64,000 nucleotides of DNA from the NCBI RefSeq assembly GCF_013408175.1, contig NZ_JACBYW010000012.1, positions 1 to 64,000 of the forward strand, read 5' to 3'. This DNA is from Actinopolyspora biskrensis. GTDB taxonomy: Bacteria; Actinomycetota; Actinomycetes; Mycobacteriales; Pseudonocardiaceae. The notes below the pieces were generated by a model. The model had not been told where the DNA came from. It made no database searches and worked only from the letters and a program-made list of their open reading frames with translations. Each line of letters opens with the position of its first letter. Positions within the stretch are counted from its first letter, which is position 1. A program made the translations under genes and the position numbers. Positions 39,970 to 59,794 of this stretch are shown piece by piece.

Positions 39970-40006
39970 GAAAAGAAAAAGCCGATGTGCGAACGCACAT
40001 CGGCTT
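39970..40006 (-). terminator. Intrinsic terminator of the tRNA operon
   Basis: On the minus strand a 12- to 13-bp perfect stem (arms 39979-39991 and 39994-40006) is followed by TTTTTCTTTT. It lies 11 nt after the last tRNA-Glu and is one of the few T-tailed terminators here. Confidence 0.9.
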
Positions 40007-40016
40007 GGTTTCGGAG

Positions 40017-40089
40017 TAGTCCCGATGGGATTCGAACCCACGTTACCGCCTTGAGAGGGCGGCGTCCTAGGCCTCTAGACGACGGGACC
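40017..40089 (-). tRNA. tRNA-Glu (CTC), distal copy
   Basis: 73-nt cloverleaf read on the minus strand: acceptor GGTCCCG pairs with CGGGACT, anticodon stem CCGCC/GGCGG encloses loop CTCTCAA with anticodon CTC, T-loop GGTTCGAATCC-type. Discriminator A, CCA not encoded. Identical to the copy at 40187-40259. Serves both Glu-tRNA and tetrapyrrole synthesis. Confidence 0.97.
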
Positions 40090-40186
40090 GCACTTTTCGA
40101 ATGATTATTCTAGTAAACCCGGAGACCACTGTGCAGTCCCCATGTTCGCACGGATGAGAACTCCCGTGGAGTTCCACCCGATTTCG

Positions 40187-40259
40187 TAGTCCCGATGGGA
40201 TTCGAACCCACGTTACCGCCTTGAGAGGGCGGCGTCCTAGGCCTCTAGACGACGGGACC
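40187..40259 (-). tRNA. tRNA-Glu (CTC), proximal copy
   Basis: Identical 73-nt gene, 97 nt upstream of the other copy. The spacer between them (40090-40186) contains a GAACTCC/GGAGTTC hairpin and a TAGAAT box, so the distal copy may be transcribed separately as well. Confidence 0.97.
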
Positions 40260-40300
40260 GGGCGAAGACTCCCACTTCATGACTGAAGCGGGTCTTCCAG

Positions 40301-40372
40301 CTGGGGTACCAGGATTCGAACCTAGACTAACTGAACCAGAATCAGTCGTGCTGCCGATTACACCATACCCCA
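40301..40372 (-). tRNA. tRNA-Gln (CTG)
   Basis: 72-nt cloverleaf on the minus strand: acceptor TGGGGTA/TACCCCA, discriminator G, anticodon stem ACTGA/TCAGT around TTCTGGT, anticodon CTG. CCA not encoded. First gene of the Gln-Glu-Glu array, 41 nt before tRNA-Glu. Its charging needs GluRS plus GatCAB, both encoded in this window. Confidence 0.97.
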
Positions 40373-40528
40373 TCGGCACCGCTGAACATCGTATCACCCT
40401 ACGAAGTTCCCCGAAGCCCCGGGGTCCTTCACTTGATGACCTCTGTTCATCGCGTTGGTTAATATACTAGACCATGCCCGCGCCCCCTTTGAAACCACCC
40501 CCCGATCACGACGATTTCGCAGGTGAAA

Positions 40529-40564
40529 GCGGCGGGACCCCGAAAGCGGGAACAGCCCCGCCGC
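40529..40564 (-). terminator. Putative terminator after the HAD hydrolase gene
   Basis: Inverted repeat GCGGCGGG/CCCGCCGC (arms 40529-40536 and 40557-40564) 11 nt downstream of the stop codon. Confidence 0.5.
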
Positions 40565-40574
40565 ACTTTCCCGA

Positions 40575-41366
40575 TCAGCCGGACCCGGCGAGGCTGTCAC
40601 ACCGCGCGGAAACCCCGACCTCACCGCCGAGGTAAGGCAGGTCACACACCAGCAGCTCCGGCAGCTCGTACAGGTTCGCGATCACCGAAACCGGATCACC
40701 GGAGACGGAGAGCCCGGCGCTCGCACGCGCCTCCCTGTCCAACCACACCCCGTGCATCCCGGCCCGAGCGGCCCCCTCCGCGTCCACGTCCAAGCTGTTA
40801 CCCACGTGTGCCACTTCGTGCGGCGCGAGGTCCAGGGCCGCGCAGGCGGCGTAGAAGATCCCCTCCGACGGTTTGGAGACACCGCACTCACCCGAGATCA
40901 ACATCGCGTCGAACGTGTCCGCCAGCCCCACGGCCGCGAGTTTGTGCCGTTGGTACGCCCCCGGTGCGTTGGTGATGACCGCCACTGCCAGACCGCTGGC
41001 CCGCAACCAGTCCAGGCAATCGGTGACGTCGTCGAAAAGCTCCCAGGAGTCCCGCATCGCACTCATGCGCCGCCGTTCACGAGCGCGGACCTCGTCCTCA
41101 CCCAAGTGCTCCCCGAAAGCCGCGAAGAAGTCACGCGTCCGGCTGAGGCACATCGTCTCGAAGTCGATCTCTCCCGCCATCATGCGCGCGTGGTACTCGG
41201 CCGTTATCCGCTGCCACATCGGCCACGCGGCGTCGTTGCCGGTCAGCGCCATGAAAGCGCGCCTGGCGGAGCGCTGACTGTCCAACAGGGTGTCGTCGAT
41301 GTCCAGGCAGACGGCTTTGATCCTGCGAAATTCACCGGGTATCGGTACCTCACGTGCGGATGTCAC
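40575..41366 (-). CDS. HAD-family hydrolase
   Basis: 263-residue haloacid dehalogenase-type phosphatase. Motif I is CLDIDDTLLD (about 20-29) with the nucleophilic Asp, motif II is VITNAPG, motif III lies in GVSKPSEGIFYAAC, and motif IV in HVGNSLDVDAEGAARAGMHGVWLD. A helical cap follows motif I, so it is a class I member resembling phosphoglycolate- or nucleotidase-type enzymes. Substrate unknown. GTG start at 41366 with no good ribosome site; a leaderless or later start is possible. Lies between gltX and the tRNA array on the same strand. Confidence 0.87.
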   Translation of the reverse strand: MTSAREVPIPGEFRRIKAVCLDIDDTLLDSQRSARRAFMALTGNDAAWPMWQRITAEYHARMMAGEIDFETMCLSRTRDFFAAFGEHLGEDEVRARERRRMSAMRDSWELFDDVTDCLDWLRASGLAVAVITNAPGAYQRHKLAAVGLADTFDAMLISGECGVSKPSEGIFYAACAALDLAPHEVAHVGNSLDVDAEGAARAGMHGVWLDREARASAGLSVSGDPVSVIANLYELPELLVCDLPYLGGEVGVSARCDSLAGSG

Positions 41367-41474
41367 CCCGTGAGGCTAGGCCCCCACCCGGAGTGGCCGA
41401 CTCGACCAATTTGGTGATACTTAAATCACTGTCGCGATTCAGCTCGCGCGTGCATCAGCACATGAACCCGACCA

Positions 41475-41507
41475 CCGTGTCGGTTTCGCCGGACGAAACC
41501 GACACGG
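41475..41507 (-). terminator. Terminator after gltX
   Basis: Perfect 14-bp inverted repeat CCGTGTCGGTTTCG/CGAAACCGACACGG (arms 41475-41488 and 41494-41507, 5-nt loop), 47 nt after the gltX stop codon. Confidence 0.8.
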
Positions 41508-41553
41508 TTCGGGCGTTCTACCCCGCTCCCCGGCGGGAACACGCGCTCCGGGC

Positions 41554-43068
41554 TCACCGCTCGGAGCCGTACTCCAGAGCGGTACGCAGCCTGCGGAGGC
41601 TGGTCTGCCTGCCGAGCAGCTCCATGGACTCGAACAGCGGCGGTGAAACGGTACGGCCGGTGATCGCCACGCGCACGGGCGTGAAGGCCTTGCGGGGTTT
41701 GATCCCCAGCCCCTCCACGATCGCCGCCTTCAACGCGTTCTCGATCTCCGAAGTCACCCATTCGGTGACACCTTCGAGCGCTTCGACGGCCGCGGAGAGC
41801 ACGGGGGCCGCATCGGCGCCGAGGGCCTTCTCCGCCGCGGCCTGCTCCGGAGCGAACTCGGAGCCCGCGAACAGGAAGCCCATCATGCCCACGGCGTCCG
41901 ACAGGACCACCACCCTCTCCTGAACCAGCGGCGCGGCCTGCCGCACGAGTTCCCGCTGCTCCGCGCTGGGCTGCTCGGGCAGCACCCCGCCGCGCACCAG
42001 GTGGGGAACGACCCTGTCGACGAAGTCGTCCAACGAGAGGGCACGCAGGTGCGCTGCGTTTATGGCGTCCGCCTTCTTCTGGTCGAACCGGGCCGGGTTG
42101 GCGCTGACCCTGCCGATGTCGAAGGCACGCACCATCTCGTCGATGCCGAAGACGTCCCGGTCCTCCGCGATGGACCACCCGAGCAGGGCCAGGTAGTTGA
42201 GCAACCCCTCGGGGATGAAACCGCGCTCCCTGTGGTGGAACACGTCGGACTGCGGATCACGCTTGGACAGCTTCTTGTTGCCCTCGCCCATCACGAAGGG
42301 AAGGTGTCCGAAGCGGGGGGTGGCATCGGTGATGCCGACACGCTGCAGCGCCTCGTAGAGCGCGATCTGACGCGGGGTGGAGGACAGCAGGTCCTCGCCG
42401 CGCAGCACATGCGTGATCCCCATCAGGGCGTCGTCGACCGGATTGGTCAACGTGTACAGCGCATCACCGCTGCCGCGCACCAGCACCGGATCCGGCACAC
42501 TCCCCGCGGGGAAGGTGACCTCCCCACGGATGAGGTCGGTGAACCCTATGTCCCGTTCCGGCATGCGCAGCCGCAGCACCGGGCTGCGTCCCTCCGCGCG
42601 CAGTTCGGACTTGCGCTGTTCCGTCAGCTCGCGGTCCGCGTTGTCGTACCCCAGCTTGGGGTCGCGGCCCGCGTCCCTGTGACGCTGCTCCACCTCCTGA
42701 GGAGTGGAGAACGACTCGTACAGTTCCCCCGCTTCCAGGAGCCTGCGCGCCACATCGGCGTAGATCTCGCTGCGCAGGCTCTGCCGGTAGGGCCCGTGGG
42801 ACCCGCCCACGTCGGGGCCCTCGTCCCAGTCGAGCCCCAACCAGCGGAGCGCTTCCAGCAGCGCCTGGTAGGAGTCCTCGCTGTCCCTGCTCGCATCGGT
42901 GTCCTCGAGCCGAAAGATCAGGGATCCGTTGTTGTGTCTGGCGAACGCCCAGTTGAACAGGGCGGTGCGAATCAGTCCGACATGCGGTGTCCCCGTGGGC
43001 GACGGGCAGAAGCGGGCGCGCACGGGACGGTCGGACTCGGCGGCTGTGGTGACATCTGGCGTGCTCAT
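41554..43068 (-). CDS. gltX: Glutamyl-tRNA synthetase, probably non-discriminating
   Basis: Class I synthetase that charges tRNA-Glu. 504 aa. Class I signature [20 protein letters not shown] near 22-41 (HIGH box as PHVG), the KMSKS-type motif NKKLSKRD near 265, and typical [15 protein letters not shown] and [12 protein letters not shown]-like elements (here [16 protein letters not shown]). No GlnRS is visible and GatCAB is present. It therefore presumably also mischarges tRNA-Gln with Glu for later amidation; this is family knowledge, not seen in the sequence. ATG start. Followed by a HAD hydrolase and the Gln/Glu tRNA array. Confidence 0.96.
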
Positions 43069-43136
43069 GACAGGTTCAGCTTATCCATCGTGTTCCGCGG
43101 GTTGACCGGCGCGTCCACTCCGCGCATGCTGAAGTT

Positions 43137-43154
43137 ATTCAACGGTTGTTGAAT
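43137..43154. promoter_or_regulatory. Operator-like palindrome ATTCAAC-GGTT-GTTGAAT
   Basis: Perfect 7-bp arms with a 4-bp centre, 18 bp in all, ending 18 bp before the flavin monooxygenase start and inside the gltX/monooxygenase divergent region. Its size and AT-rich arms suit a TetR- or MarR-type repressor. No such repressor gene is adjacent. Confidence 0.55.
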
Positions 43155-43172
43155 TTTGCTAGGAGGGTCGTG

Positions 43173-44405
43173 ATGAGGCGAACCACCTGTTGCATCGTCG
43201 GGGGCGGCCCCGCGGGCATGGTCCTCGGCCTGCTGCTGGCACGCTCCGGCGTGAGCGTGACCGTGCTGGAGAAGCACTCCGACTTCCTGCGCGACTTCCG
43301 GGGTGACACGGTGCATCCCACGACCATGGCCCTGCTGGACGACCTGGGCCTGGCCGAACGGTTCGCGGAGCTCCCGCAGAACAGGCTCGACACGGTACGG
43401 CTCCCCGTCGGCCCCGACGGGGAGCTCCACACCGTGGGAGACTTCCGACGACTGCCGATCAAGTACAACTACATCGCCATGGTCCCGCAGTGGGACCTGC
43501 TCGATCTGCTCGCGGACGAGGGACGGCGGGAACCGAGCTTCACGCTGCTGACGGACGCCGAGGTGACGGGGCCGGTCCGGGAGCACGGCAGAGTGACCGG
43601 CGTCGAGTACCGCTCCCCCGACGGAAGCACGGAACGGCTGCTGGCTACCGTGACCGTCGCCTGCGACGGGAGGAACTCCTTCGCACGCGGAATTCCCGAA
43701 CTGGTTCCGCGCGACTTCCCCACACCGATGGACGTCCAGTGGTTCCGCCTGCCGAAAACGGCGCGGGACCCGGCCGGAGCCTTCGGAACGATCCGCAGCG
43801 GCTCGTTCACCGTCCTGCTCGACCGGGGGGACTACTACCAGGCCGCCTCGATAATCGCCAAGGGCACCGACGCGGCCGAACGCGCCCGGGGCGTCGAGAA
43901 CTTCAACCGCGACCTGCGACGACGCCTGCCCTGGCTGGACGACGGGCGGCAGCTCGTACGGAGCTGGGAGGACGTGAAGCTGCTGCACGTCAGCCTGGAC
44001 CGGATGCGCAAGTGGCACATCCCCGGGCTGCTCTGCATCGGTGACGCCGCACACGCGATGTCACCGGTGGGTGGAATCGGCATCAACCTCGCGGTTCAGG
44101 ACGCCGTGGCCACGGCACGGCACCTCGCCGGCCCCCTGCGCGCGGGAAGGCTGCGCAGGCACCACGTGGCCGCGGTACAGCGCCGCCGGAAACCGGTCAC
44201 CGCGCTGCTGCAGCGGCTCCAGCGCACCGTCCACGAAGACGTGATCGAACCCGCACTGCGCGGAAGCATCGACTTCGAGGACCGGGCGAGACTACCGCTA
44301 CCGCTGAGGCTGCCGCCGAAGGTCCCGTGGCTGCGTGCGATACCGCCGTACGTCTTCGCCTACGGAGCCTTCCGGGAACGACCGCCGAGGAGCGCCGTTC
44401 ACTGA
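43173..44405 (+). CDS. FAD-dependent monooxygenase, PHBH fold
   Basis: 410-residue group A flavoprotein monooxygenase/oxidoreductase. FAD-binding GxGxxG in CIVGGGPAGMVLGLLLA (about 7-23), the DG motif in VACDGRNSFARGIP, and the GD motif in LCIGDAAHAMSPVGGIGINLAVQDA. The substrate is unknown; related enzymes act on aromatics or polyketide-like rings. ATG at 43173 with AGGAGG 6 nt upstream. It is divergent from gltX and just downstream of a perfect 18-bp palindrome, so inducible expression is likely. It is not part of the core order and may be acquired. Confidence 0.88.
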   Translation: MRRTTCCIVGGGPAGMVLGLLLARSGVSVTVLEKHSDFLRDFRGDTVHPTTMALLDDLGLAERFAELPQNRLDTVRLPVGPDGELHTVGDFRRLPIKYNYIAMVPQWDLLDLLADEGRREPSFTLLTDAEVTGPVREHGRVTGVEYRSPDGSTERLLATVTVACDGRNSFARGIPELVPRDFPTPMDVQWFRLPKTARDPAGAFGTIRSGSFTVLLDRGDYYQAASIIAKGTDAAERARGVENFNRDLRRRLPWLDDGRQLVRSWEDVKLLHVSLDRMRKWHIPGLLCIGDAAHAMSPVGGIGINLAVQDAVATARHLAGPLRAGRLRRHHVAAVQRRRKPVTALLQRLQRTVHEDVIEPALRGSIDFEDRARLPLPLRLPPKVPWLRAIPPYVFAYGAFRERPPRSAVH

Positions 44406-44640
44406 CGCCCGCGGCGACCGTTCCCACACCCCGGTACCCGACCGGATCCGGGACGGCTCACCGACGTCTTCCCGTCGAGTTGTCGGCCGGTGCGGGTTTT
44501 CCCTCGACGCGGGCAGCGTCGGGACGCACCACCCGAGCAACCGGCGCCGCGGGTTCTCCCGTGCTGCTCCCACGAGGACGGTCCCGAGGTCGTGCAGGTG
44601 GCCACCCGGTACCGGGGCACCCGCTCACGAGGCCGCGGGA

Positions 44641-44657
44641 GGTTCCGCCACGGAACC
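44641..44657 (-). terminator. Small hairpin after the FAH-family gene
   Basis: GGTTCCG-CCA-CGGAACC, 7-bp stem with a 3-nt loop, about 30 nt beyond the stop codon of the FAH-family gene. The rest of the 282-bp gap to the monooxygenase holds nothing I can support. Confidence 0.4.
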
Positions 44658-44687
44658 ATCCGCGGCGACCCGAGCAGCGAAAACCGG

Positions 44688-45470
44688 TCAGGCCTGCTGC
44701 ACCGGATTGGTGAGAGTTCCCAGCCCGTCGATGGAAACCGAGACCTTCTGCCCCGGCTGCAGCGGACCGACCCCCGAAGGAGTTCCGGTCAGGATCACAT
44801 CGCCGGGCAGCAAGGTCATGACGCGGGAGATGTACGAAACCAGACCGGCCACGTCGTGTACCAGCAAAGAGGTCCGCGACTCCTGCACCGGTTCGCGGTC
44901 CAGTTCCGTGCGCAGCGCCAGGTCCGAGGCATCCGCGGCCGTGTCGATCCACGGTCCGAGCGGGCAGAAGGTGTCGTAGCTCTTGGAACGCGTCCACTGC
45001 CCGTCGGCCTGCTGCTGGTCCCGTGCGGTCACGTCGTTGGCGATCGTGTAGCCGAGCACGACCTCGGTGCCGCGGGCCTCCGGAACGTCCTTGCAGGGCT
45101 GTCCGATCACCGCCGCGAGCTCACCCTCGTAGTCCACCCGCTCGGAATCGGGCGGCATCTTGATCGGCGCGCTCGGACCGACGACCGCCGTGGACGGTTT
45201 CATGAACAGAACCGGGTTCGGCGGCACCTCCGATCCCATCTCCCGTGCGTGTTCGGCGTAGTTCTTCCCCACGCACAGCACCTTGGTCGGCAGGATCGGC
45301 GCCAGCAGCCGCACATCGGCCATCGGCCATTTGCGGCCGGTGAACGTCGGCTCCCCGAACGGGTGCTGGTCGATCTCGACGGCGAGCACCTTCTCACCGG
45401 GGGACTTGGGATCCGGCTCCAGAGCGACGAACGAGACCCCTTCGGGTTGAGCAACACGTGCCAGGCGCAA
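44688..45470 (-). CDS. Fumarylacetoacetate hydrolase-family protein
   Basis: 260-residue FAH-fold enzyme. Seen: the core YAEHAREMGSEVPPNPVLFMKPSTAVVGP-type region (split by me), the metal-binding acidic motif RVDYEGELAAVIG, GYTIANDVTARDQQ, and GDVILTGTPSGVG. The family includes 2-hydroxyhepta-2,4-diene-1,7-dioate isomerase, acylpyruvases and oxaloacetate decarboxylases. The exact activity cannot be assigned. TTG start at 45470 with GGAGG 6 nt upstream. Conserved neighbour of gltX in actinobacteria (M. tuberculosis Rv2993c), so a housekeeping role such as acylpyruvate clearance is plausible. Confidence 0.88.
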   Translation of the reverse strand: MRLARVAQPEGVSFVALEPDPKSPGEKVLAVEIDQHPFGEPTFTGRKWPMADVRLLAPILPTKVLCVGKNYAEHAREMGSEVPPNPVLFMKPSTAVVGPSAPIKMPPDSERVDYEGELAAVIGQPCKDVPEARGTEVVLGYTIANDVTARDQQQADGQWTRSKSYDTFCPLGPWIDTAADASDLALRTELDREPVQESRTSLLVHDVAGLVSYISRVMTLLPGDVILTGTPSGVGPLQPGQKVSVSIDGLGTLTNPVQQA

Positions 45471-45536
45471 GCGAAACCTCCGTTATCTACTTTCCCCGGA
45501 CAGCCTACGTGCCGCGCACCCGAACAACTCGCCTGG

Positions 45537-47225
45537 TCACCCGCTGCCCGGCAGGCTCACCTCGCCGATCCCGGCCCGCCGTATCGCCTTGTGGGCGAAC
45601 GCGTCACGCAGCGCGTACCAGCTGGCCTCGACGATGTTGCCGTGGACTCCCACGGTGGTCCACTCGAGGGAATCGTCCCGCGATTCGACGAGCACCCGGG
45701 TGACCGCGTCCGTACCCGAGGTGTCGGTGAGGATCCGCACCTTGTAGTCCACCAGCTCGACCTCGTCGAGCCAGGGGAGCCGCGGAACCAGCCCGGCGCG
45801 GAGCGCCGCGTCCAACGCGTTGACCGGGCCGTTCCCCTCGGCCGTGGCGATGACCCGCTCACCGTCCACGTGCAACTTGACCGTCACCTCGGACACGACC
45901 TGCCCGTCCGGACGGTGGTCGAGCGAGACCCGGTAGGACTCCAGCTCGAAGGGAGCTCCGAACGAGGCCCCGACGGAGGTCTCCGGCTTCCCCTCGCGGA
46001 CATCTCCTCCCCCGGCGATCGCGAGTTCACGACGCAGCAGCAGCTCCAGCGAGGCGTCAGCCCCCTCGAACGACCACCCGTGGGCTTCCAGCTCCTTCAC
46101 CCTGCGCACCGCGCCGGTCACCGCATCGGGCGAACCGCTCAGGTCCAGCCCGAGCTCGGCCGCCTTGAGTTCCAGGCTCGCGCGTCCGGCCATCTCGGTG
46201 ACCAGCACGCGCATTCCGTTGCCCACCCGTTCCGGATCGATGTGGTTGTACAGCTCCGGGTCCACCTTGATCGCGCTGGCGTGCAGTCCCGCCTTGTGGG
46301 CGAAGGTGGAGGTGCCCACATAGGCCTGGTGCGTGTCCGGGGCGAGATTGGCGATCTCGGCCAGCGCGTGCGAAACGCGGCTGAGCTCGGCGAGGTTGCC
46401 CTCGGGAAGCACCGGGATGTCGAGCTTGGTCTCCAGGTTGCCGATCACGGAGAACAGATCGGCGTTTCCCGCGCGCTCGCCGTACCCGTTGGCCGTGCAC
46501 TGGACGTGACTCGCCCCCGCCTGAACCGCGGCCAGCGTGTTCGCCACGGCACACCCGGTGTCGTCCTGGCAGTGGATTCCCACTCGGAAACCGGTGCGCC
46601 GAACGACCTCCTCGACCGTTCGCGCCAGACCGGTGGGCAGCTGTCCGCCGTTGGTGTCGCAGAGGCAGACCAGATCGGCCCCCGCGTGCACGGCCGACTC
46701 CAGCACGCGCAGCGCCGTGTCGGGGTCGTGGGCGTACCCGTCGAAGAAGTGCTCGGCATCCAGGAACACGCGCCGCCCGTGTTCGACGAGGTGGCGCACG
46801 GTGTCCGCCACCATCGCGCAGTTCTCCGCCACGTCGGTGCGCAACGCGTGCTCGATGTGCCTGCTGTCGGACTTCGCGACCAGGGTCACCACGGGCGCCC
46901 GGGATTCGAGCAGCGCCGCCACCTGCGCGTCCTCCCGCACGGAGGCGCCGGGCCTGCGCGTGGAGCCGAAGGCTGTGAGTACGGAGTGCCTGAGTTCGAG
47001 CTCGCCCTCCGCCGCTCGTTGGAAGAACTCGGTGTCCTTGGGCAGCGCCCCGGGCCAGCCTCCCTCGATGAACCCCACGCCGAGGGCGTCCAACGTGCTC
47101 GCGACGGCGAGCTTGTCCGACACCGAGTAGGAGATACCTTCACGTTGGGCTCCGTCACGCAGTGTGGTGTCGTAGACGTGAAAAGCGTCCGCGGACGGAG
47201 TTCCTGCCGGGCTGGTGCGGGTCAC
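45537..47225 (-). CDS. cimA: (R)-citramalate synthase
   Basis: Condenses pyruvate with acetyl-CoA to citramalate, providing 2-ketobutyrate for isoleucine without threonine deaminase. 562 aa, homologue of isopropylmalate synthase. N-terminal TIM barrel (about 10-280) has YDTTLRDGAQREGISYSV, HCQDDTGCAVANTLAAVQAG and QCTANGYGERAGNADL. The C-terminal regulatory domain (about 400-550) contains VDYKVRILTDTSGTDAVTRV and resembles the LeuA allosteric domain. GTG start with GGAGG 4 nt upstream. Preceded by a leader ORF and a T-tailed terminator, and located beside leuB. TIGR00977-type CimA rather than LeuA judged by the GYGERAG and DDTGCAVAN elements. Confidence 0.9.
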   Translation of the reverse strand: MTRTSPAGTPSADAFHVYDTTLRDGAQREGISYSVSDKLAVASTLDALGVGFIEGGWPGALPKDTEFFQRAAEGELELRHSVLTAFGSTRRPGASVREDAQVAALLESRAPVVTLVAKSDSRHIEHALRTDVAENCAMVADTVRHLVEHGRRVFLDAEHFFDGYAHDPDTALRVLESAVHAGADLVCLCDTNGGQLPTGLARTVEEVVRRTGFRVGIHCQDDTGCAVANTLAAVQAGASHVQCTANGYGERAGNADLFSVIGNLETKLDIPVLPEGNLAELSRVSHALAEIANLAPDTHQAYVGTSTFAHKAGLHASAIKVDPELYNHIDPERVGNGMRVLVTEMAGRASLELKAAELGLDLSGSPDAVTGAVRRVKELEAHGWSFEGADASLELLLRRELAIAGGGDVREGKPETSVGASFGAPFELESYRVSLDHRPDGQVVSEVTVKLHVDGERVIATAEGNGPVNALDAALRAGLVPRLPWLDEVELVDYKVRILTDTSGTDAVTRVLVESRDDSLEWTTVGVHGNIVEASWYALRDAFAHKAIRRAGIGEVSLPGSG

Positions 47226-47293
47226 TGTCCCTCCAAAGGACGATGTTCGGTTGGTCCGGAACGTGCTGTGGACGCTTGGCGGATCCACTGGGA

Positions 47294-47366
47294 AACAAAA
47301 AAAGACCCCTCGCGGATGCGAGAGGTCTGCGCGTCGGGCGAAAGGAACTCGATTCACCCGACGCGC
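47294..47366 (-). promoter_or_regulatory. Candidate isoleucine attenuator upstream of cimA
   Basis: On the minus strand, reading toward cimA: a perfect 10-bp hairpin GCGCGTCGGG/CCCGACGCGC (arms 47357-47366 and 47329-47338) overlaps the stop codon of the leader ORF. A second hairpin follows (arms 47318-47328 and 47303-47313, 11 bp including one G-T pair, loop of 4) and is trailed by TTTTTTTGTTT. The second is a typical intrinsic terminator, 69 nt before the cimA GTG. The layout parallels the ilvB leader. I could not identify an antiterminator pairing by eye. It could instead simply end leuB transcription. Confidence 0.65.
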
Positions 47367-47416
47367 TTGCCAATAATGTCCTTCACGTGGCGGAACACGC
47401 GGCCATGCTCGCACAC
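47354..47416 (-). CDS. Candidate cimA leader peptide
   Basis: 20-codon frame from GTG 47416 to TGA 47354, with GGAG about 10 nt upstream. It reads VCEHGRVFRHVKDIIGKRVG. Its two isoleucines are consecutive ATT codons (47372-47377), rare in this GC-rich genome where ATC is the norm, and lie 5 nt before the first arm of the downstream hairpin. The end DIIGKRV resembles DILVLPGRV of the ilvB leader. Another GTG one frame over gives an unrelated 11-residue peptide. Confidence 0.5.
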   Translation of the reverse strand: MCEHGRVFRHVKDIIGKRVG

Positions 47417-47505
47417 ACCGCTTTCGCTCCACTCACTGGGCCCTTTTTCCCATGATCCGGACACGAGGAGGCGTGTCGACGTTCCGCCGGACGAACCGCG
47501 CCCGG

Positions 47506-48549
47506 TCAGGTCTGCTGCACGACCTCCCTGGAGGAAACGAGCGCGGCCAGCCGGTCCCCGATGGCGTGAGTGGCCCCGGGGGCGGAATGGTCCCGGGTCG
47601 CCAGATCGAACGACACGGAGGCCTGGACCCGGCGCGCCGCCTCGGTGTAGCCCACGTGGTCGAGCAGCAGCGCCACGGAGAGCACCGCGGCGGTCGGGTC
47701 GGCGGTCCCCTGCCCGGCGATGTCGGGCGCACTGCCGTGCACTGGCTCGAACATGCTCGGGTTCCGCCTCGTGGCGTCGATGTTTCCGCTGGCGGCCCGA
47801 CCGATACCGCCCGTCACCGCCCCCGCGAGATCGGTGATGATGTCGCCGAACAGATTGTCGGTGACGATCACGTCGAACCTGCTCGGGTCCTGGACCAGGT
47901 GGATCGTCGTCGCGTCGACGTGCTCGTAGGCCACGGTGACGTCCGGGTACTGCAGCGAGAGCTCCTCGACGACACGCGACCACAAGGATCCGGCGTGACT
48001 GAGCACGTTGGTCTTGTGCACCAGGGTCAGGTGCTTGCGCGGACGGGACGAAGCCCTGGCGAAAGCATCCCTGACCACGCGCTCGACACCGAACGCGGTG
48101 TTCAGGCTCACCTCGGTGGCGACTTCCTGGGGGGTGTCCTTGCGCAGCAGGCCGCCGTTTCCCGCGTAGGGCCCCTCGGTGCCCTCCCGCACGACCACCA
48201 TGTCGATGTCGCCCGGTTCGGCGATCGGACTCTGGACTCCCGGATACAACCGCGCGGGACGCAGGTTCACGTGGTGGTCGAGCTCGAAACGCAACCGCAG
48301 CAACAGCCCGCGTTCGAGGATTCCGCTGGGCACCGACGGGTCCCCCACCGCACCGAGCAGGATGCCGTCCTGCTCCCGCATCTCCCCCAGCACGGATTCG
48401 GGCAGTAGTTCCCCGGTGTTGTGCCAGCGAGCAGCGCCCAGATCGTACCGCGTGATCTCCGTTTCGGGCACCACTTCTCCGAGTACCTTCAGAGCCTCGG
48501 CCACCACTTCCGGCCCGATCCCGTCACCTGGGATCACAGCGAGCCGCAT
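47506..48549 (-). CDS. leuB: 3-isopropylmalate dehydrogenase
   Basis: NAD-dependent oxidative decarboxylation of 3-isopropylmalate in leucine synthesis. 347 aa, the shorter actinobacterial form. Seen: [64 protein letters not shown] (metal-binding aspartates), and [23 protein letters not shown] at 48549 with GAGGTG upstream; a GTG two codons earlier is possible. It lies between serA and cimA on the same strand, separated from serA by a terminator. Confidence 0.96.
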
Positions 48550-48775
48550 GCACACACCTCCCGAGTACTGCCCCGACCTGGGACTGAAACGTCGCCCCGC
48601 AGACTACCGTCCTTCGATCACGCCGCGGCACGCCGGACCCTTCAAGTGGACAGCACTTCCCGCGCAGTGGGACACCCGAATGGGTGAGTATCCACCGTTC
48701 AAGCGAGGGCAGCACCCCTGTCCCACCTTTCGGCATCCGATCAGCCACGCGGGGTGGCACCCCCGGTTCCGCAAA

Positions 48776-48806
48776 GAGGGGCCGCCGCTGCGCGCGACGG
48801 CCCCTC
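48776..48806 (-). terminator. Terminator after serA
   Basis: GC-rich hairpin GAGGGGCCG/CGGCCCCTC (arms 48776-48784 and 48798-48806, 13-nt loop), 44 nt beyond the serA stop codon and followed on the minus strand by TTTGC. Confidence 0.7.
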
Positions 48807-48849
48807 CGGGAACGAGCGGTGTGGATCCCACCGGATCACACCCGAGGAC

Positions 48850-50445
48850 TCACTCGAAGCTGACGGTGCGCACCGTCTTGGCCCCAACCGCGGCTCCGAT
48901 GGGCTCGAGGACGCCCGCGTCCACCGGACGATCCACGCGCAGCAACATGATCGCGTCCGAGCCGTCGTAGGTCTGGCTGATCTGCGCGGCCTCGATGTTG
49001 ATCCCGACCTCGCCGAGCAGCGTGCCGACCTTGCCCATGACGCCCGGGCGGTCCGGGTACTCGAGCAGCAGGACGCTGCCCTCGGCCCGCAGGTCGAAGT
49101 GCCTGCCGTTGACCTCGACCAGCTTCTCGACCTGCTCCGGCCCGTCCAGAGCACCCGAGACCACGCCGGTACGGCCGTCGGACAGCACCGCGCGCACCGA
49201 CACGACGCTGCGGTGGCTCGCGCTCTCCGGAGAGGTCTTCACGTCGATGTCCACTCCGAGGTCCTCGGCGAGCTGCGGAGCGTTCACGAAGGTGACCTGG
49301 CTCTCCACCGCACCGGCGAACACCCCGCGCAGCGCCGCCAGCGGCAGCACGGACACGTCCTCCTCGGCGAGCTCGCCGCGGGCCTCGACCGTGACCGAGG
49401 TCGGGGTCGACCCCAGCACGGCAGCGAGCAGGGAGCCGAGCTTCTGCGTCAGGGGCAGGTACGGGCGCACCTCCTCGCCGACGGCCCCTCCCTGGACGTT
49501 GACCGCGTCGGGGACGAACTCTCCGCGCAGCGCCTGCAGCGTGGAGTGGGCGACATCGGTGCCCGCGCGGTCCTGGGCCTCGGCCGTGGAAGCCCCGAGG
49601 TGCGGGGTGGCGACCACGTTGGAGAGCTCGAACAGCGGGCTGGAGGTGTTGGGCTCGGTGCTGTAGACGTCGATGCCTGCGCCACCGAGGTGACCGCTGC
49701 GCAGGGCGTCGGCCAACGCGTCCTCGTCGATGAGCCCACCGCGGGCGGCGTTGATGACGATGGCGCCCTGCTTGCACTTCTTGAGTTCCTCGGCACCGAT
49801 GAGTCCGAGGGTCTCCGCCGTCTTGGGCAGGTGGATGGACATCGCGTCGGCGCGCTGCAGCAGCTCGTCGAGGCTGACCAGTTCGATGCCGAGCTGGGCC
49901 GCGCGGGCCGCGGAGACGTAGGGGTCGTAGGCGATCAGCTTCGCACCGAACGCCTCGAGTCGCTGCGCGACGAGCTGACCGATCTTGCCGAGACCGATGA
50001 CACCGAAGGTCTTGCCGTTGAGCTCCACACCGCTGAAGGCGCTGCGCTTCCACTCGCCCTCGCGCAGGCTCGCGTCCGCGACTGCGACGTTGCGGGCGAC
50101 GGCCAGCAGCAGCGCGATGGCGTGCTCGGCGGCCGAAACGATGTTGGAGGTGGGGGCGTTGACCACCATGATGCCGCGTTCGGTCGCGGCGGGAACCTCG
50201 ACGTTGTCCAGTCCCACGCCCGCACGGGCGACGATCTTCAACCGCGTGCTCGCGGAGTAAACCTCGGTGTCGACCTTCGTCGCCGAACGGACCAGCAGCG
50301 CGTCGGCGTCGGCGACGGCCTCGAGTAGGGCGGGGCGATCGGTACCGTCGACGTGGCGGATCTCGACCTCGTCTCCGAATGCTTCCAGCACCGAAGGAGC
50401 CAGCTTCTCAGCGATCAGGACGACAGGACGGCTTGCGTTGGTCAC
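48850..50445 (-). CDS. serA: D-3-phosphoglycerate dehydrogenase
   Basis: First committed step of serine synthesis. 531 aa, the long form with an intervening (ASB) domain and a C-terminal ACT domain for serine feedback. Seen: VLIAEKLAPSVLEAFG, ARAGVGLDNVEVPAATERGI, NAD-binding FGVIGLGKIGQLVAQRLEAFG, NAARGGLIDEDALADAL, catalytic His region TPHLGASTAEAQ, and ACT segment LLLEYPDRPGVMGKVGTLLGE. GTG at 50445 with GGAG 7 nt upstream. The frame stays open 16 codons further to an ATG at 50493, adding a Cys-rich MACLCFDPDLCYW segment that I judge to be outside the protein. Confidence 0.96.
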   Translation of the reverse strand: MTNASRPVVLIAEKLAPSVLEAFGDEVEIRHVDGTDRPALLEAVADADALLVRSATKVDTEVYSASTRLKIVARAGVGLDNVEVPAATERGIMVVNAPTSNIVSAAEHAIALLLAVARNVAVADASLREGEWKRSAFSGVELNGKTFGVIGLGKIGQLVAQRLEAFGAKLIAYDPYVSAARAAQLGIELVSLDELLQRADAMSIHLPKTAETLGLIGAEELKKCKQGAIVINAARGGLIDEDALADALRSGHLGGAGIDVYSTEPNTSSPLFELSNVVATPHLGASTAEAQDRAGTDVAHSTLQALRGEFVPDAVNVQGGAVGEEVRPYLPLTQKLGSLLAAVLGSTPTSVTVEARGELAEEDVSVLPLAALRGVFAGAVESQVTFVNAPQLAEDLGVDIDVKTSPESASHRSVVSVRAVLSDGRTGVVSGALDGPEQVEKLVEVNGRHFDLRAEGSVLLLEYPDRPGVMGKVGTLLGEVGINIEAAQISQTYDGSDAIMLLRVDRPVDAGVLEPIGAAVGAKTVRTVSFE

Positions 50446-50645
50446 GGGCGCGCTCCAGTAACAGAGATCAGGGTCGAAGCAAAGGCACGCCATTGTGCCG
50501 GACGGTGCAGCAGTTTAACGCCGATATGAGAATCCGTTCACACAAGTGTTGGACGTATCACCGTAACGCCGTCTTCGGACTTTCCGGTCGAAAACGACAT
50601 CGAACAATGAAACCGCAGCACACAGCTTCGCGGACAGTGCGGTGC

Positions 50646-50672
50646 ACCTGCCCGTCACCATCACGGGCAGGT
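50646..50672 (-). terminator. Terminator after the DUF397 gene
   Basis: Perfect 10-bp inverted repeat ACCTGCCCGT/ACGGGCAGGT (arms 50646-50655 and 50663-50672, 7-nt loop), 13 nt after the stop codon. Confidence 0.65.
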
Positions 50673-50685
50673 TACGGTGGAGGAT

Positions 50686-50931
50686 TCACGGTTCGTCGAA
50701 CTCGCCGTCCTTGGCGCCCGCGACGAACGCGTCCCACTCCTCAGGAGTGAACACGAGCACCGGCCCCTCCGGGTCCGCACCGTTGCGCATGCCTATGTAG
50801 CCGTCCACGAAGGCGATCTCCACCCCGGGCTCGTCATCGTCGTCGGTACTGGTGATCCACTCGGCCGTGCTGAAGTCGAGCTGATCCCTGATGTGCGCTT
50901 TGTCGTCGACCGGCTGCGTTTCCTCGCTCAC
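50686..50931 (-). CDS. DUF397 protein
   Basis: 81-residue protein with the actinobacterial DUF397 pattern: DFSTAEWITSTDDDD at the front, VEIAFVDGYIGMRNGADPEG in the middle, and the hallmark VLVFTPEEWDAFVAGAKDGEFD at the end. These small proteins usually sit next to an XRE-family regulator gene and modulate it; here none is adjacent. GTG start at 50931, with TATTAT (50939-50944 on the minus strand) ending 7 nt before it, which suggests a leaderless mRNA. The very acidic DDDDE run is notable. It interrupts the serA/ilvC neighbourhood and may be an insertion. Confidence 0.88.
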   Translation of the reverse strand: MSEETQPVDDKAHIRDQLDFSTAEWITSTDDDDEPGVEIAFVDGYIGMRNGADPEGPVLVFTPEEWDAFVAGAKDGEFDEP

Positions 50932-51163
50932 GGAGCGGATAATACCGATCCGGGCCACTCCCCCGACAGGAAGGGCGCTTCTCCCCGCGCGAGAACGGGT
51001 CGCCCGCCCGGAGCGACACCGGACGGACGGCCCGCCGGACCGCTCGGACTCACTGGTGCTCGCTGTTCGCCCTCGTCGCAGGCGCCCGGGTGGTGCGCCC
51101 CGGCGCCATCGGCACCGAGGGGAGAACCCCGCCCCCACCAACAAGTCCGCCGGAAAGCACCGG

Positions 51164-52201
<1,038 letters not shown>

Positions 52202-52708
52202 TCACCGCACTGCGGTTGCCGTGATCGAACGTGCTCCTCGGCCGATGGCGACCATTCCCGACTGGACCATCTCGCGAACGCCGTAGGGCTCGAGCATCCG
52301 CAGCAGCGCGTCCAGCTTGTCCGAATCGCCGGTGGCCTCGATGGTCAGCGCCTCCGGAGAAGCGTCGACCACCTTCGCCCTGAACAGCTGCACCGTCTCG
52401 AGGACCTGGCTGCGCACCGAGGCATCGGCCCGCACCTTCACCAACAACAGCTCGCGCTGCACCGACGAGTCCGGGTCCAGCTCGACGATCTTGATGATGT
52501 TGACCAGCTTGTTGAGCTGTTTGGTCACCTGTTCCAGCGGCTGCTCCTCCACCGAGACCACGATCGTCATCCGCGAGATCTCGGGGTGTTCCGTCGGCCC
52601 GACGGCCAGGGATTCGATGTTGAAGCTGCGCCGGGAGAACAACCCCGACACCCTGGCGAGCACACCGGGAACGTTCTCCACCAGCACGCTGAGTGTGTGT
52701 CGGCTCAT
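52202..52708 (-). CDS. ilvN: Acetolactate synthase regulatory subunit
   Basis: Small subunit that activates IlvB and confers valine feedback. 168 aa with an N-terminal ACT domain (MSRHTLSVLVENVPGVLARV, FSRRSFNIESLAVGPTE) and a C-terminal small-subunit domain (about 85-160). ATG at 52708 follows GAGGGGTGAG and lies 8 nt after ilvB; a GTG at 52720 overlapping the ilvB stop (GTGA) is an alternative. Either way translation is coupled to ilvB. Confidence 0.96.
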   Translation of the reverse strand: MSRHTLSVLVENVPGVLARVSGLFSRRSFNIESLAVGPTEHPEISRMTIVVSVEEQPLEQVTKQLNKLVNIIKIVELDPDSSVQRELLLVKVRADASVRSQVLETVQLFRAKVVDASPEALTIEATGDSDKLDALLRMLEPYGVREMVQSGMVAIGRGARSITATAVR

Positions 52709-52716
52709 CGACGCGC

Positions 52717-54549
52717 TCACCCCTCGTCGTCGTCGAACAGCGGGCGGATTCCGCGCGCCGCCATGATTTCGTCGTTTCCGGTTCCGGCGGCCACCATCGG
52801 CCACACTTGCGCGTCCTTGCCCACCACGAAATCGATGACCACGGGTCGGTCGTCGATCTCCATCGCCCGCTCGATGACGCTGTCCACGTCGGCAGCGGAC
52901 TCGCACCTCATCCCCACGCCTCCGAGCGCCTCGGCCAGCAGCGAGAAATCGGGGATGCGGTGTCCGTGGGTGCCGAGATCACTTTGTGAGTAACGCTCGG
53001 CGTAGAAGAGGTTCTGCCACTGCCGGACCATACCGAGGTTGCCGTTGTTGATGACCGCCACCTTGATCGGCAGCCCCTCGATGGCGCAGGTGGCCAGTTC
53101 CTGGTTGGTCATCTGGAAACAGCCGTCCCCGTCGATGGCCCAGACCTGCCGGTCGGGGGCCCCTGCCTTGGCGCCCATCGCCGCGGGAACGGCGTAGCCC
53201 ATCGTTCCGAGCCCACCGGAGTTGAGCCAGCTGCCCGGACGTTGGTACTCGATGAACTGGGCCGCCCACATCTGGTGCTGCCCCACTCCCGCGCTGTAGA
53301 CCGCCTCCGGTCCCGCGAGCTGCCCGATCCGCTCGATCACGTACTCGGGCGAGAGCGTGCCGTCGGCCGGCCAGTCGTAGCCGAGGGGGAAGCGGCTGCG
53401 CCAGTCCTCCAGCTGCTCCCACCACTCGGACAGGTCACCGCGACCCCGCTCGGTGGAGGCGCTGTCCACGGCTTCGAGGAGCTCGGCCAGGACCTCCTTG
53501 CAGTCCCCCACGATCGGCACGTCGGCGACCCTGTTCTTGGAGATCTCGGCCGGATCGATGTCGGCGTGCACGACCTTGGCCTCCGGTGCGAAACCCGACA
53601 GCTGCCCGGTGACCCTGTCGTCGAAGCGGGTCCCCAGCGCGATCAGCAGATCGGACCGCTGCATCGCGGCCACCGCGGGAACCGTCCCGTGCATGCCCGG
53701 CATCCCCAGGTGCAGAGGGTGCGAGTCGGGGAACGCGCCCCGGGCCATCAGCGTGGTGACCACCGGGATCCCGGTGTGCTCGGCGAGCCTGGCCAGTTCC
53801 GCGGACGCCTCGGCCTTGAGCACCCCGCCGCCGACGTAGAGCACCGGACGCTCGGCCTCGCTCATCAGCCGCGCCGCTTCGCGAACCTGCTTGCCGTGCG
53901 GTTTGCCGACGGGCCGGTAGCCGGGCAACCGTTGTTCCGGTGGCCAGGAGAAGGACATGGTCAGCTGCTGGACGTCCTTGGGAATGTCCACCAGCACCGG
54001 TCCCGGACGACCGCTGGATGCGATGTAGAACGCCTCGGCGATGGTGCGCGGGATCTCGGCCGGATCGGTGACCAGGAAGTTGTGCTTGGTCACGGGCAGT
54101 GTGATGCCGCAGATGTCGGCTTCCTGGAAGGCGTCGGTACCGATCAGGCCGGTGCTCTGCTGCCCCGTGATCGCCACCACCGGAACCGAGTCCATGTGCG
54201 CGTCGGCCAGCGCGGTGACCAGGTTGGTCGCCCCCGGCCCCGAGGTGGCCATGCAGACTCCGGTACTTCCCGTGACCTGCGCGTATCCGGCCGCCGCGTG
54301 ACCGGCGGCCTGCTCGTGCCGAACGAGCACGTGGCGCACCTTGGTCGAGTCCAGGAGTGGGTCGTAGGTGGGAAGAATCGTTCCGCCCGGTATGCCGAAG
54401 ACCACCTCGCAGCCCACGGCTTCCAGCGAGCGGACCAATGCTTGGGCGCCGGTCGCTCTTACCGGGGCGCCGTTGGGCGGGGCCGGCTTCGGACGTTGCC
54501 CCGGGGACGCTTCCGGGGCCGGGTTCTGCCTGGTATTGGCGCTGGTCAT
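52717..54549 (-). CDS. ilvB: Acetolactate synthase large subunit
   Basis: ThDP- and FAD-dependent catalytic subunit making acetolactate or acetohydroxybutyrate. 610 aa. Seen: [14 protein letters not shown], the catalytic Glu in [35 protein letters not shown], and the ThDP/Mg-binding [17 protein letters not shown] and [12 protein letters not shown]. An N-terminal Pro/Ala-rich stretch of about 30 residues is probably disordered. ATG with GAGG 8 nt upstream. First gene of ilvBNC, preceded by a leader-peptide attenuator and a canonical promoter. Confidence 0.97.
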
Positions 54550-54587
54550 CGATTCTGCCTCGCGGTCGATGAATGGGGCCGGGCACG

Positions 54588-54660
54588 AAAAAACCCCCGC
54601 CGGCTACATAGCCGAACGAGGGTTGGCGCGTCGACGCTGCGTACTTCTCAGGCGTCGACG
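54588..54660 (-). promoter_or_regulatory. ilvBNC transcription attenuator
   Basis: On the minus strand three elements follow the control codons. CGTACTTC inside the leader can pair with GAAGTACG just after its stop. GCGCGTCGACGC can pair with GCGTCGACGCGC, a perfect 12 bp that excludes the first pairing. A terminator stem (arms 54610-54624 and 54592-54605) then ends in six Ts (54588-54593). It lies 39 nt before ilvB. Leader-peptide attenuation of ilv operons is established in actinobacteria. Confidence 0.85.
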
Positions 54661-54698
54661 CGCCCGGGAAGTACGAGAATGTCGTTGATGCGCAGCAT
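54648..54698 (-). CDS. ilvB leader peptide
   Basis: 16-residue leader MLRINDILVLPGRVDA, from ATG 54698 to TGA 54648. Control codons ATT-CTC-GTA-CTT (Ile-Leu-Val-Leu) are clustered and three of them (ATT, GTA, CTT) are rare in this genome. There is no ribosome site, and the -10 element ends 7 nt upstream, so the mRNA probably starts at the ATG. Ribosome position on these codons would choose between the two alternative hairpins. Confidence 0.85.
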   Translation of the reverse strand: MLRINDILVLPGRVDA

Positions 54699-54705
54699 GG
54701 TTCGG

Positions 54706-54734
54706 AGATTAGTCCCACCGGGCACGGAAGTCAA
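54706..54734 (-). promoter_or_regulatory. ilvB promoter
   Basis: On the minus strand TTGACT (54729-54734), a 17-bp spacer and TAATCT (54706-54711), with the leader-peptide ATG 7 nt further on. This is the best match to a housekeeping sigma promoter in the window. Confidence 0.8.
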
Positions 54735-54858
54735 ACCAACGGGAAAGCTCTCCCGCATCGTGGACCACGAGGGAACGGGACTCCCCGGTCGCGCGGCGCG
54801 AGCGCTGCCGCGCACGCTCCGGTGAGAACATCGGCTGCGCAGGTGAGACCATCGAGGG

Positions 54859-55497
54859 GTGAGTGAGACCCGCGATGAGACCACGGAACCGGACACCGCG
54901 ACTTCCTCCGGAAGCCGCACGGCGGACGAGCAGACCTCCTCCTCGGGAGGCGAAACCGGTACCGCGCCCGCCGACTCACGGGAGGGGCCCGCGGTCGAGG
55001 CATCCGACCCGACCCCGCCAACGGGTACCCCGGAGGACACCCCCTCCGGGGAAGGCCCCTCCGAGGAGAGCCGTGCGGACGGCGGCACCGCGCGAGCACC
55101 GCGGCTGGTTTTCCGCTTCACCCGCGTGAGCCTGCTCGTGCTCCTGATCGTGGCGATCTGCATCAGCCCGGTCGCCGCGTCGATCCCCTGGCTCTCGCTG
55201 CTGTACCTGGTTCCGCTCGGCCTGCTCTACTGGGTGATCCGCATGCGGACGGTCGCGGGCCCCTCCGGACTGACCACCCGTTCGCTGTTCCGGACCGAAT
55301 CCCTGGAATGGACGGAGATCAAGGCGCTGCGGCTCGACGAGCGCCGCTGGGTCCGCGCGATCACGCACTCGGGCCGGGAGATCCCCCTCCCCGTCGTCCG
55401 GGTCCGGGACGTGCCACGGCTGGCCGCCACGAGCGGAGGACGGTTGCGCGACCCGCTCGCTCCGACCGACAACGACGGAGAGCACGCCCGGGAGTGA
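54859..55497 (+). CDS. PH-domain membrane protein (Cfp6-like)
   Basis: 212-residue protein. Residues 1-80 are a disordered, acidic Ser/Thr/Pro/Glu-rich region. Two membrane helices follow at about 92-109 and 113-128 (VSLLVLLIVAICISPVAA and LSLLYLVPLGLLYWVI). A bacterial PH-like domain follows at about 132-195 with GLTTRSLFRTESLEWTEIKAL. Function unknown. Position next to ilvB matches M. tuberculosis Rv3004 (Cfp6), although the disordered extension is longer here. GTG start at 54859, divergent from ilvB. Confidence 0.85.
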   Translation: MSETRDETTEPDTATSSGSRTADEQTSSSGGETGTAPADSREGPAVEASDPTPPTGTPEDTPSGEGPSEESRADGGTARAPRLVFRFTRVSLLVLLIVAICISPVAASIPWLSLLYLVPLGLLYWVIRMRTVAGPSGLTTRSLFRTESLEWTEIKALRLDERRWVRAITHSGREIPLPVVRVRDVPRLAATSGGRLRDPLAPTDNDGEHARE

Positions 55498-55684
55498 CCC
55501 CTACCGGGCCCCGCCCGAGATCGTCCGCTTTTATCTCACCAAGTGGGAACAAACCCGGCGGAGGCCGCTCCATATCCACACGAAGGCCGGAGTAGGCTCG
55601 TGTTCACCGCTGATGCCCGGCGTCCACAAGGCGCGGCCCGTTCTCCGCCTCAGGCGGTATCCCACGAAGTGAGAGCTTACAATC

Positions 55685-57529: not shown

Positions 57530-57533
57530 TCGG

Positions 57534-57575
57534 GTCCGCGTTCCGCGGGTGCCGCGGCACCCGCGGAACGCGGAC
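57534..57575. terminator. Perfect 20-bp terminator between ilvD and doxX
   Basis: Inverted repeat with arms 57534-57553 and 57556-57575, perfectly complementary over 20 bp with only two bases between, filling the 49-bp gap between convergent genes. Confidence 0.9.
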
Positions 57576-57578
57576 TTG

Positions 57579-58334: not shown

Positions 58335-58501
58335 GGACGAAAGGCTAGGACATCGGCAACCGGCTGTGCGACCGTTTCGGAAAATCCGAATTATTTTCCC
58401 GGATGTGCCGCCCACACCGGACGGGGAGAAACGGCGACGCCGCGCCCCGTCTCCACGCCTCTCACCTCGTGTTCACCGCGAAGAGGATATGGTCGGCGAC
58501 T

Positions 58502-59692: not shown

Positions 59693-59763
59693 GCGTCCGT
59701 CCTCACGTCCGCGGGAAACCACCGCACCCGCGGGCCCGTCCCGAGGGGTTTCCAGCCGAATGC

Positions 59764-59783
59764 CGGGGCGGCGGACCGCCCCG
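59764..59783. terminator. Terminator between lppZ-like gene and gatB
   Basis: Perfect 8-bp GC stem CGGGGCGG/CCGCCCCG with a 4-nt loop, between convergent genes. Confidence 0.65.
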
Positions 59784-59794
59784 ACCCGACCACC

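Follow-up and report, generated by a model that had tools for sequence, protein, structure and literature searches.

A candidate isoleucine-responsive leader-peptide attenuator upstream of the citramalate synthase gene cimA in Actinopolyspora biskrensis and its relatives

The leuB-cimA intergenic region

The sequence analysed (hereafter the window) is a stretch of 64,000 nucleotides from Actinopolyspora biskrensis (contig NZ_JACBYW010000012.1, positions 1 to 64,000), in which leuB and cimA are separated on the minus strand by an intergenic region holding a short open reading frame (ORF), then a hairpin over its stop codon (H1) and then a terminator (H2). The features of this region are listed below from 5' to 3'.

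47508-47506, minus strand: leuB stop codon, 280 nt upstream of cimA
47427-47432, minus strand: putative -35-like hexamer GTGGAG, read from the sequence and placed by eye against relatives; presumed promoter function
47405-47410, minus strand: putative -10-like hexamer GAGCAT, 16-nt spacer, 6 nt upstream of the start codon; presumed promoter function
47354-47398, minus strand: leader ORF of 14 codons, GTG (at 47398) to TGA, encoding MFRHVKDIIGKRVG and probably leaderless
47372-47377, minus strand: regulatory codons ATT-ATT, 11 and 8 nt 5' of H1
47329-47366, minus strand: hairpin H1, 14 pairs, 5' arm 47366-47353 over the stop codon and 3' arm 47342-47329
47303-47328, minus strand: hairpin H2, the 11-pair stem of an intrinsic terminator, 47328-47318 with 47313-47303
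47297-47303, minus strand: seven-T run, the terminator tract, whose first T closes the H2 stem
45537-47225, minus strand: cimA, citramalate synthase (TIGR00977), GTG start at 47225

The cimA product scored 574 bits against the TIGR00977 citramalate synthase model (cut-off 450), and its five best named relatives were from Actinopolyspora species. The original prediction, an isoleucine-responsive attenuator in front of cimA, was made from the sequence letters and had described tandem ATT-ATT codons, five bases between these and a perfect 10-bp hairpin overlapping the leader stop codon, and an 11-bp hairpin with seven Ts ahead of the cimA start. All of these were recovered: the tandem codons lie at 47377-47372 on the minus strand, the five bases are GGCAA, the 10-bp hairpin is the perfect part of H1, which lies over the TGA and is extended by four more pairs (one of them G-U), and the 11-bp hairpin is H2, with a gap of 0 nt to H1. 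It had also been stated that the genome otherwise writes isoleucine as ATC, and the six coding genes of the window agreed with this (91 ATC, 1 ATT and 3 ATA).

A 195-nt fold of the leader region gave a z-score of -5.2 against shuffles. No T-box, ppGpp or other Rfam riboswitch was matched at gathering score: the top-scoring Rfam model in 47150-47560 reached 16.6 bits where 74 would be required, and the Rfam matches in 40000-60000 were three tRNAs only. Three consecutive tRNA genes are located at 40017-40372 on the minus strand.

Conservation of the element upstream of cimA

Upstream regions were compared at loci from 80 named contigs (L001-L080), which were the best 80 of 417 relatives by cimA similarity and are therefore tilted towards near kin, at 30 loci from whole genomes, and in a further 19 genomes that represent other families of the order (L130, from a genome with a weak cimA match, was not counted). 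The comparison comprised 118 rows, namely 99 distinct upstream regions including the window and the 19 other-family genomes. The leader ORF, Ile codons and terminator were found upstream of cimA at 98 of 98 distinct near-relative loci, and the same element was found before cimA in 14 of the 19 other-family genomes, with a short ORF containing at least one Ile codon in 14 of 14; the conservation of ORF, Ile codons and hairpins, by which the prediction could be checked, was thus observed both in near relatives and in other families. An Ile codon together with an Ile or Val codon lay before the CGC arm and inside the ORF in all 99 distinct regions, and the terminator pattern stood behind a GCGC-type arm in 113 of the 118 rows. 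cimA was without the element in five of the 19 other-family genomes (L111, L113, L118, L123 and L126). By eye, leuB was seen to end within about 40 nt of cimA at three of these five loci.

Over 47 non-redundant leaders, 96.1% of the stem pairs of H1 and H2 were kept. Changes on both sides were observed at 9 pairs and in 53 cells, against 4.3 and 14.1 in shuffles, while an alignment in which the partner column was shifted by 1-3 positions gave at most 8 both-sided cells. The 5' arm of H2 keeps U-G wobbles opposite a G-run, which an optimal terminator would not need; in H2, columns 96 and 117 of alignment A1 held 33 U-G, 13 U-A and 1 C-G pairs over the 47 leaders. No conserved partner for the H2 G-run was found.

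The original prediction had conceded that the terminator may simply end leuB, and a plain leuB terminator (H1 and H2 together, with the ORF incidental) would fit the end of leuB 280 nt before cimA in the window. However, no leuB was present in at least 2.5 kb upstream at 31 of the 98 element-bearing loci, and at 25 more it was further off or otherwise placed (56 of 98 in sum); the element also precedes four other gene types. Since the element stays with cimA at loci lacking leuB, this explanation is considered refuted, with next to no probability left to it.

Occurrence of the element upstream of other branched-chain amino acid genes

Searches were performed with two models: R1, a covariance model for which cimA leaders alone were used, and R2, a wider model. 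R1 matched the leader of the window's own ilvB gene (54694-54581, E 1.5e-5), as well as ilvB and leuA leaders in other genomes.

54581-54694, minus strand: sister ilvB leader encoding MLRINDILVLPGRVDA (read by eye, up to the stop codon), with two hairpins and a T-run; matched by R1 and R2

R2 gave two matches in the genome of the window at E up to 1, at cimA and ilvB. Irrespective of the downstream gene, R1 gave matches in 60 of 396 genomes of the phylum and R2 in 280 of 394 genomes of the class. In 40 genomes picked from those with at least two matches there were 92 R2 matches, 91 of which were read; 85 preceded a branched-chain amino acid (BCAA) gene (cimA 36, ilvB 36, leuS 11, leuA 1, threonine dehydratase 1), and six did not (L208, L246 twice, L267, L268 and L272). 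All 173 classified matches, with downstream genes assigned by best tblastn match and only representatives checked against NCBIfam, were distributed as cimA 80, ilvB 53, threonine dehydratase 20, leuS 11, leuA 2 and none 7. In the NCBIfam check both leuA stretches exceeded a LeuA cut-off, an incomplete leuS stretch reached 523 bits, just under the LeuS cut-off of 548, and three tested threonine dehydratases fell below the cut-off of threonine ammonia-lyase models, the C-terminal part being absent.

The 20 threonine dehydratase leaders (L269, L280, L282-L294, L298, L300, L301, L303 and L304) all belong to family f104, which was searched on purpose. They mostly end in LM[A/V/G]IT and have an Ile codon some 8 nt upstream of H1; threonine dehydratase, which is likewise an isoleucine-entry gene, would thus be controlled in a similar way to cimA. 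At L208 (1501-1599) an element with an III leader was observed which is followed by no BCAA gene on its strand and whose opposite-strand neighbour matches acyl-CoA synthetase models; it is possibly an orphan copy.

Leader codons and the downstream gene

Leader codons were counted over 256 distinct elements (281 rows were reduced to 276, of which 272 had a T-run and 267 were parsed, and 11 repeats were removed). L246 (twice), L267, L268 and L272, which have no BCAA gene, were left out before these counts, while L154 and L208 were retained as unassigned; a readable ORF was absent from two cimA rows and from one ilvB row, the window's own, which was read by eye. The frame of each leader was set by the longest run of I/L/V codons, a choice that favours BCAA codons generally but not any one of the three. 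Among the 170 distinct cimA leaders, 159 had Ile-Ile anywhere in -27 to -4 relative to H1, and 157 had it in the longest run; Ile-Ile occurred in 1 of 50 leaders for ilvB, 2 of 19 for threonine dehydratase and 0 of 10 for leuS. The codon at -11 (±1) was Ile in 164 of the 170 distinct cimA leaders, its third base varying between T and C. Codons -11 and -8 were both Leu in the leuS (10/10) and leuA (2/2) leaders, and an Ile codon was found at -8 in 17 of 19 threonine dehydratase leaders.

As a control for kinship, cimA and ilvB leaders were compared within the same genome, and the cimA run was the Ile-richer of the two in 29 of 31 genomes from 22 families (p 4.6e-7). The exceptions were L205 (MWHTGRVLAASIIT), a VL/II tie which was scored as VL, and L211, which was judged by eye to be misframed. 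Of the 415 Ile codons lying no more than 20 nt from H1 in cimA leaders, 236 were the rare ATT, which made up 1 of 95 in the six window genes and 48 of 1091 in the cimA genes of relatives; likewise, 52 of the 85 Val codons this close to H1 in ilvB leaders were GTA, against 3 of 256 in the six window genes. Rare codons seem to be chosen at the sensing positions.

The claim of an isoleucine-specific leader-peptide attenuator of cimA is supported by its conservation and by the codon contrast with ilvB in the same genomes. The ORF of the element is short and carries codons for the amino acid made by the pathway of the downstream gene, and a hairpin over its end is followed by a T-run terminator. 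Because one model matches both cimA and ilvB leaders and the codons follow the gene, the cimA element belongs, as judged from sequence, to the leader-peptide attenuators of actinobacteria, with cimA as a new target. A single family would link the leaders of cimA, ilvB, leuA, leuS and threonine dehydratase, with codons swapped per gene.

Leader start and putative promoter

The original prediction had placed a 20-codon ORF behind a GGAG Shine-Dalgarno site, and both points required revision. The frame is open (47416-47354), yet an ATG or GTG was present 20 codons from the stop in only 22 of 99 distinct leaders, and this start is therefore not the conserved one; an ATG or GTG was located 14 codons from the stop in 91 of the 99 and 13 codons from it in seven, the exception being L105. 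The GGAG (47430-47427) sits at the -35 position. A -10-like hexamer (CAGCAT, GAGCAT, CACCAT and similar) usually lies 6-7 nt before the conserved start, and in many relatives TTGGTA- or TTGGAG-like hexamers were seen by eye 16-18 nt upstream of it, in the place of the -35-like box. A Shine-Dalgarno-like motif at -14 to -5 was found in 10 of 134 non-redundant cimA leaders. The cimA leader transcript is probably leaderless, with ribosomes loading on its bare 5' end, and IlvL of Streptomyces lividans has been described as leaderless (PMC8079986). A sigma-70-like site at 47479-47452 was also considered as promoter and was passed over in favour of the boxes at 47432-47405, because the latter are at the conserved place.

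Geometry of the leader and folding under ribosome masking

In the cimA leaders the first regulatory Ile codon was located at -14 in 81 of 167 cases and at -11 in 46 (distance to H1). The last regulatory codon was at -8 in 109 of 167 cimA, 22 of 50 ilvB, 14 of 18 threonine dehydratase and 10 of 10 leuS leaders, being the last Leu codon in all ten of these. The stop codon of the cimA leaders ranged from -6 to +35 relative to H1, and the gap between H1 and H2 was 0 nt in 200 of 256 elements and at most 2 nt in 254. The footprint of a ribosome extends about 13 nt downstream from its A-site codon. With the first Ile codon mostly 14 or 11 nt before H1, a ribosome stalled there should therefore leave most of H1 free, and the earlier proposal that stalling masks the first arm is doubtful; a ribosome at the stop codon, on the other hand, should cover the 5' arm of H1. 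For Mycobacterium tuberculosis ilvB1 a 26-nt occlusion centred on the codon was used (PMC13236596).

The effect of masking on folding, put forward as a check of the prediction, was on average confined to the first hairpin. When the 5' part of the cimA leaders was removed, the mean probability of H1, P(H1), decreased from 0.95 at edge -1 to 0.76 at +2, 0.45 at +5 and 0.10 at +11, while mean P(H2) was 0.97-0.98 under every mask. P(H2) was below 0.8 in only 1 to 3 of 170 cimA rows per mask; individual rows fell to 0.01 at edge +5 (the lowest for cimA) and, for L093 in the stop state, to 0.12. As mean P(H2) is unmoved by the masks, thermodynamics alone gives no switch.

In the unmasked RNA, 12 loci had a low P(H2) (0.005 to 0.84), namely L007-L009, L011, L014-L016 and L019-L023, which comprise 11 of the 15 Saccharopolyspora loci (L007-L017 and L020-L023) plus L019. 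At these loci the leader region can pair with parts of the terminator, and a lack of translation might cause readthrough.

Alternative explanations and proposed mechanism

No antiterminator had been seen by eye in the original prediction, and none clearly emerged from the computations on masks, arm pairing and loop pairing. A classical antiterminator brought about by masking was rejected, as removal of the 5' part did not lower H2 on average. A pairing between the H1 3' arm and the H2 5' arm (2:3 pairing) would correspond to the textbook trp design, but the two arms touch in nearly all elements (gap counts above), and therefore there is no loop for full-length 2:3 pairing; the arms also paired more weakly than shuffled arms, by 1.31 ± 0.09 kcal/mol for cimA, 1.43 ± 0.23 for ilvB, 1.81 ± 0.51 for leuS and 1.44 ± 0.27 for ilvA. 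An exclusive antiterminator of the trp type, made of these two arms, was not found, and such a design is thought very improbable here.

An antiterminator formed upon stalling between the H1 loop and the H2 3' arm was proposed for the Corynebacterium ilvB-II motif (PMC10272879). The apical loops of H1 are indeed C-rich (0.445 C, 0.165 G) and the 3' arm of H2 is often a G-run, this pairing reached -11.3 kcal/mol in the window, and with apical loops only the gain over shuffles for cimA was -0.51 ± 0.12 kcal/mol. When the whole region inside the outer nine pairs was considered, however, the difference from shuffles was -0.28 ± 0.19 for cimA, +0.64 ± 0.36 for ilvB and +0.83 ± 0.44 for ilvA, and loops swapped between leaders paired about as well as the leaders' own (cimA -9.32 swapped and -9.53 own, with a standard deviation of swapped means of 0.12; ilvB -10.55 swapped and -9.78 own), so that a loop-based antiterminator, although feasible in the window, lacks clear backing across the family and appears rather unlikely. 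It could also be that the leader senses translation or growth state generally, with H1 as a pause hairpin and the codons mattering little, in line with codon changes that were without effect in Streptomyces coelicolor ilvB (PMC1262725). Leader codons nevertheless track the pathway of the downstream gene across families, which is hard to explain without codon-specific sensing, and a general sensor is judged distinctly improbable.

Ribosome-mediated attenuation in response to isoleucyl-tRNA, with H1 as the variable part, is therefore favoured, and we consider with good confidence that the region is an isoleucine-responsive transcription attenuator of cimA. The parts that the comparison of sequences supports are the ORF, the Ile codons, the distance from codon to H1, H1, H2 and their abutment. 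Under this attenuator model, transcription would begin at or beside the leader GTG, so that ribosomes would load on the bare 5' end of the leader RNA. With plentiful isoleucyl-tRNA the ribosome would reach the stop codon and sit over the 5' arm of H1; H1 would be blocked, and H2 would end transcription. When isoleucyl-tRNA is short, the ribosome would halt at the first Ile codons, which lie 14-11 nt short of H1, and leave H1 free to form. The folded H1 may then keep the abutting H2 from completing in the exit channel of the polymerase, with readthrough into cimA. This coupling of H1 to H2 is the least certain step, and it is the constant abutment of the two hairpins which suggests that folded H1 stops H2 from closing.

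Attenuation of M. tuberculosis ilvB1 is documented by reporter and end-mapping evidence (PMC13236596), and that of the Corynebacterium ilvB leader by reporter evidence in Bacillus subtilis, where one codon change had no effect (PMC10272879). In S. coelicolor ilvB, the lack of effect of altered leader codons (PMC1262725) argues against simple codon sensing, whereas the comparative codon data argue for it.

A broader interpretation, which is put forward tentatively and as a whole, is that of a modular actinobacterial attenuator chassis with codons swapped per gene and switching without competing base pairs. Its layout would be a leaderless ORF of mostly 8-16 codons, a codon run that stops about 8 nt short of H1, and H2 set directly behind H1; it would carry Ile codons before cimA and threonine dehydratase, Leu/Val/Ile codons before ilvB, and Leu codons before leuA and leuS; and its switch would be folded H1 at the foot of H2, preventing termination purely by position.

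Comparison with known systems

In the trp and ilv attenuators of Escherichia coli a leader peptide with codons for the product of the pathway and a terminator precede the first gene. The cimA element differs in that its stems abut, which makes a full 2:3 antiterminator impossible. It resembles the actinobacterial ilvB leaders, in which a short Ile/Val/Leu-rich ORF runs over a hairpin and is followed by a T-run terminator (PMC1262725, PMC8079986), and differs from them in its target, cimA, and in regulatory codons that are Ile only. Leaders of this type have been published for ilvB and leuS (PMC1262725, PMC8079986), and for ilvB also in PMC10272879 and PMC13236596. The end of S. lividans IlvL, GKRVG before the stop codon, is also the end of the window's cimA leader (PMC8079986), and locus L276 encodes the published IlvL peptide, MRTRILVLGKRVG.

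The Corynebacterium ilvB-II motif likewise has two stems, P1 and P2, with an upstream ORF (uORF) across most of P1 and P2 as the terminator, and its reporter was low in rich and high in minimal medium; it differs in lying before ilvB, in one genus, and in its P1-loop antiterminator, which was not found conserved here (PMC10272879). M. tuberculosis ilvB1 is similar in its uORF with BCAA codons, and shows a short terminated leader RNA and induction on inhibition of the pathway; similar, too, is the model proposed for it, in which a ribosome at the stop codon prevents, and a stalled ribosome permits, an antiterminator. It differs in controlling an ilvB operon through LVVI codons (PMC13236596). 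leuS leaders have been described in Streptomyces (PMC1262725, PMC8079986); the leuS leaders matched by R2 have their Leu codons at the same distance from H1 as the Ile codons of the cimA leaders, and differ in the amino acid, leucine, and in the target, a tRNA synthetase.

cimA is not named in the first two of the three parts of PMC1262725, neither cimA nor citramalate occurs in the main text of PMC8079986, whose table of eight leaders includes none for cimA, and cimA does not occur in the main text of PMC13236596. A search of openly available papers by title and abstract gave no description of a leader for cimA (or citramalate), for threonine dehydratase or for SCO5529, the single paper with SCO5529 being on Lon protease; this agrees with the original statement that no such control of cimA was known, although absence is not thereby proven. 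The citramalate route to isoleucine begins with cimA, and this gene would have an isoleucine-specific RNA switch in the element. The element also bears on the question raised in 2005 of actinobacterial attenuation without a visible antiterminator (PMC1262725). Relative to these systems the design is known, and what appears to be new is the target gene cimA, a codon set of a single amino acid, and a coupling between hairpins outside the textbook form.
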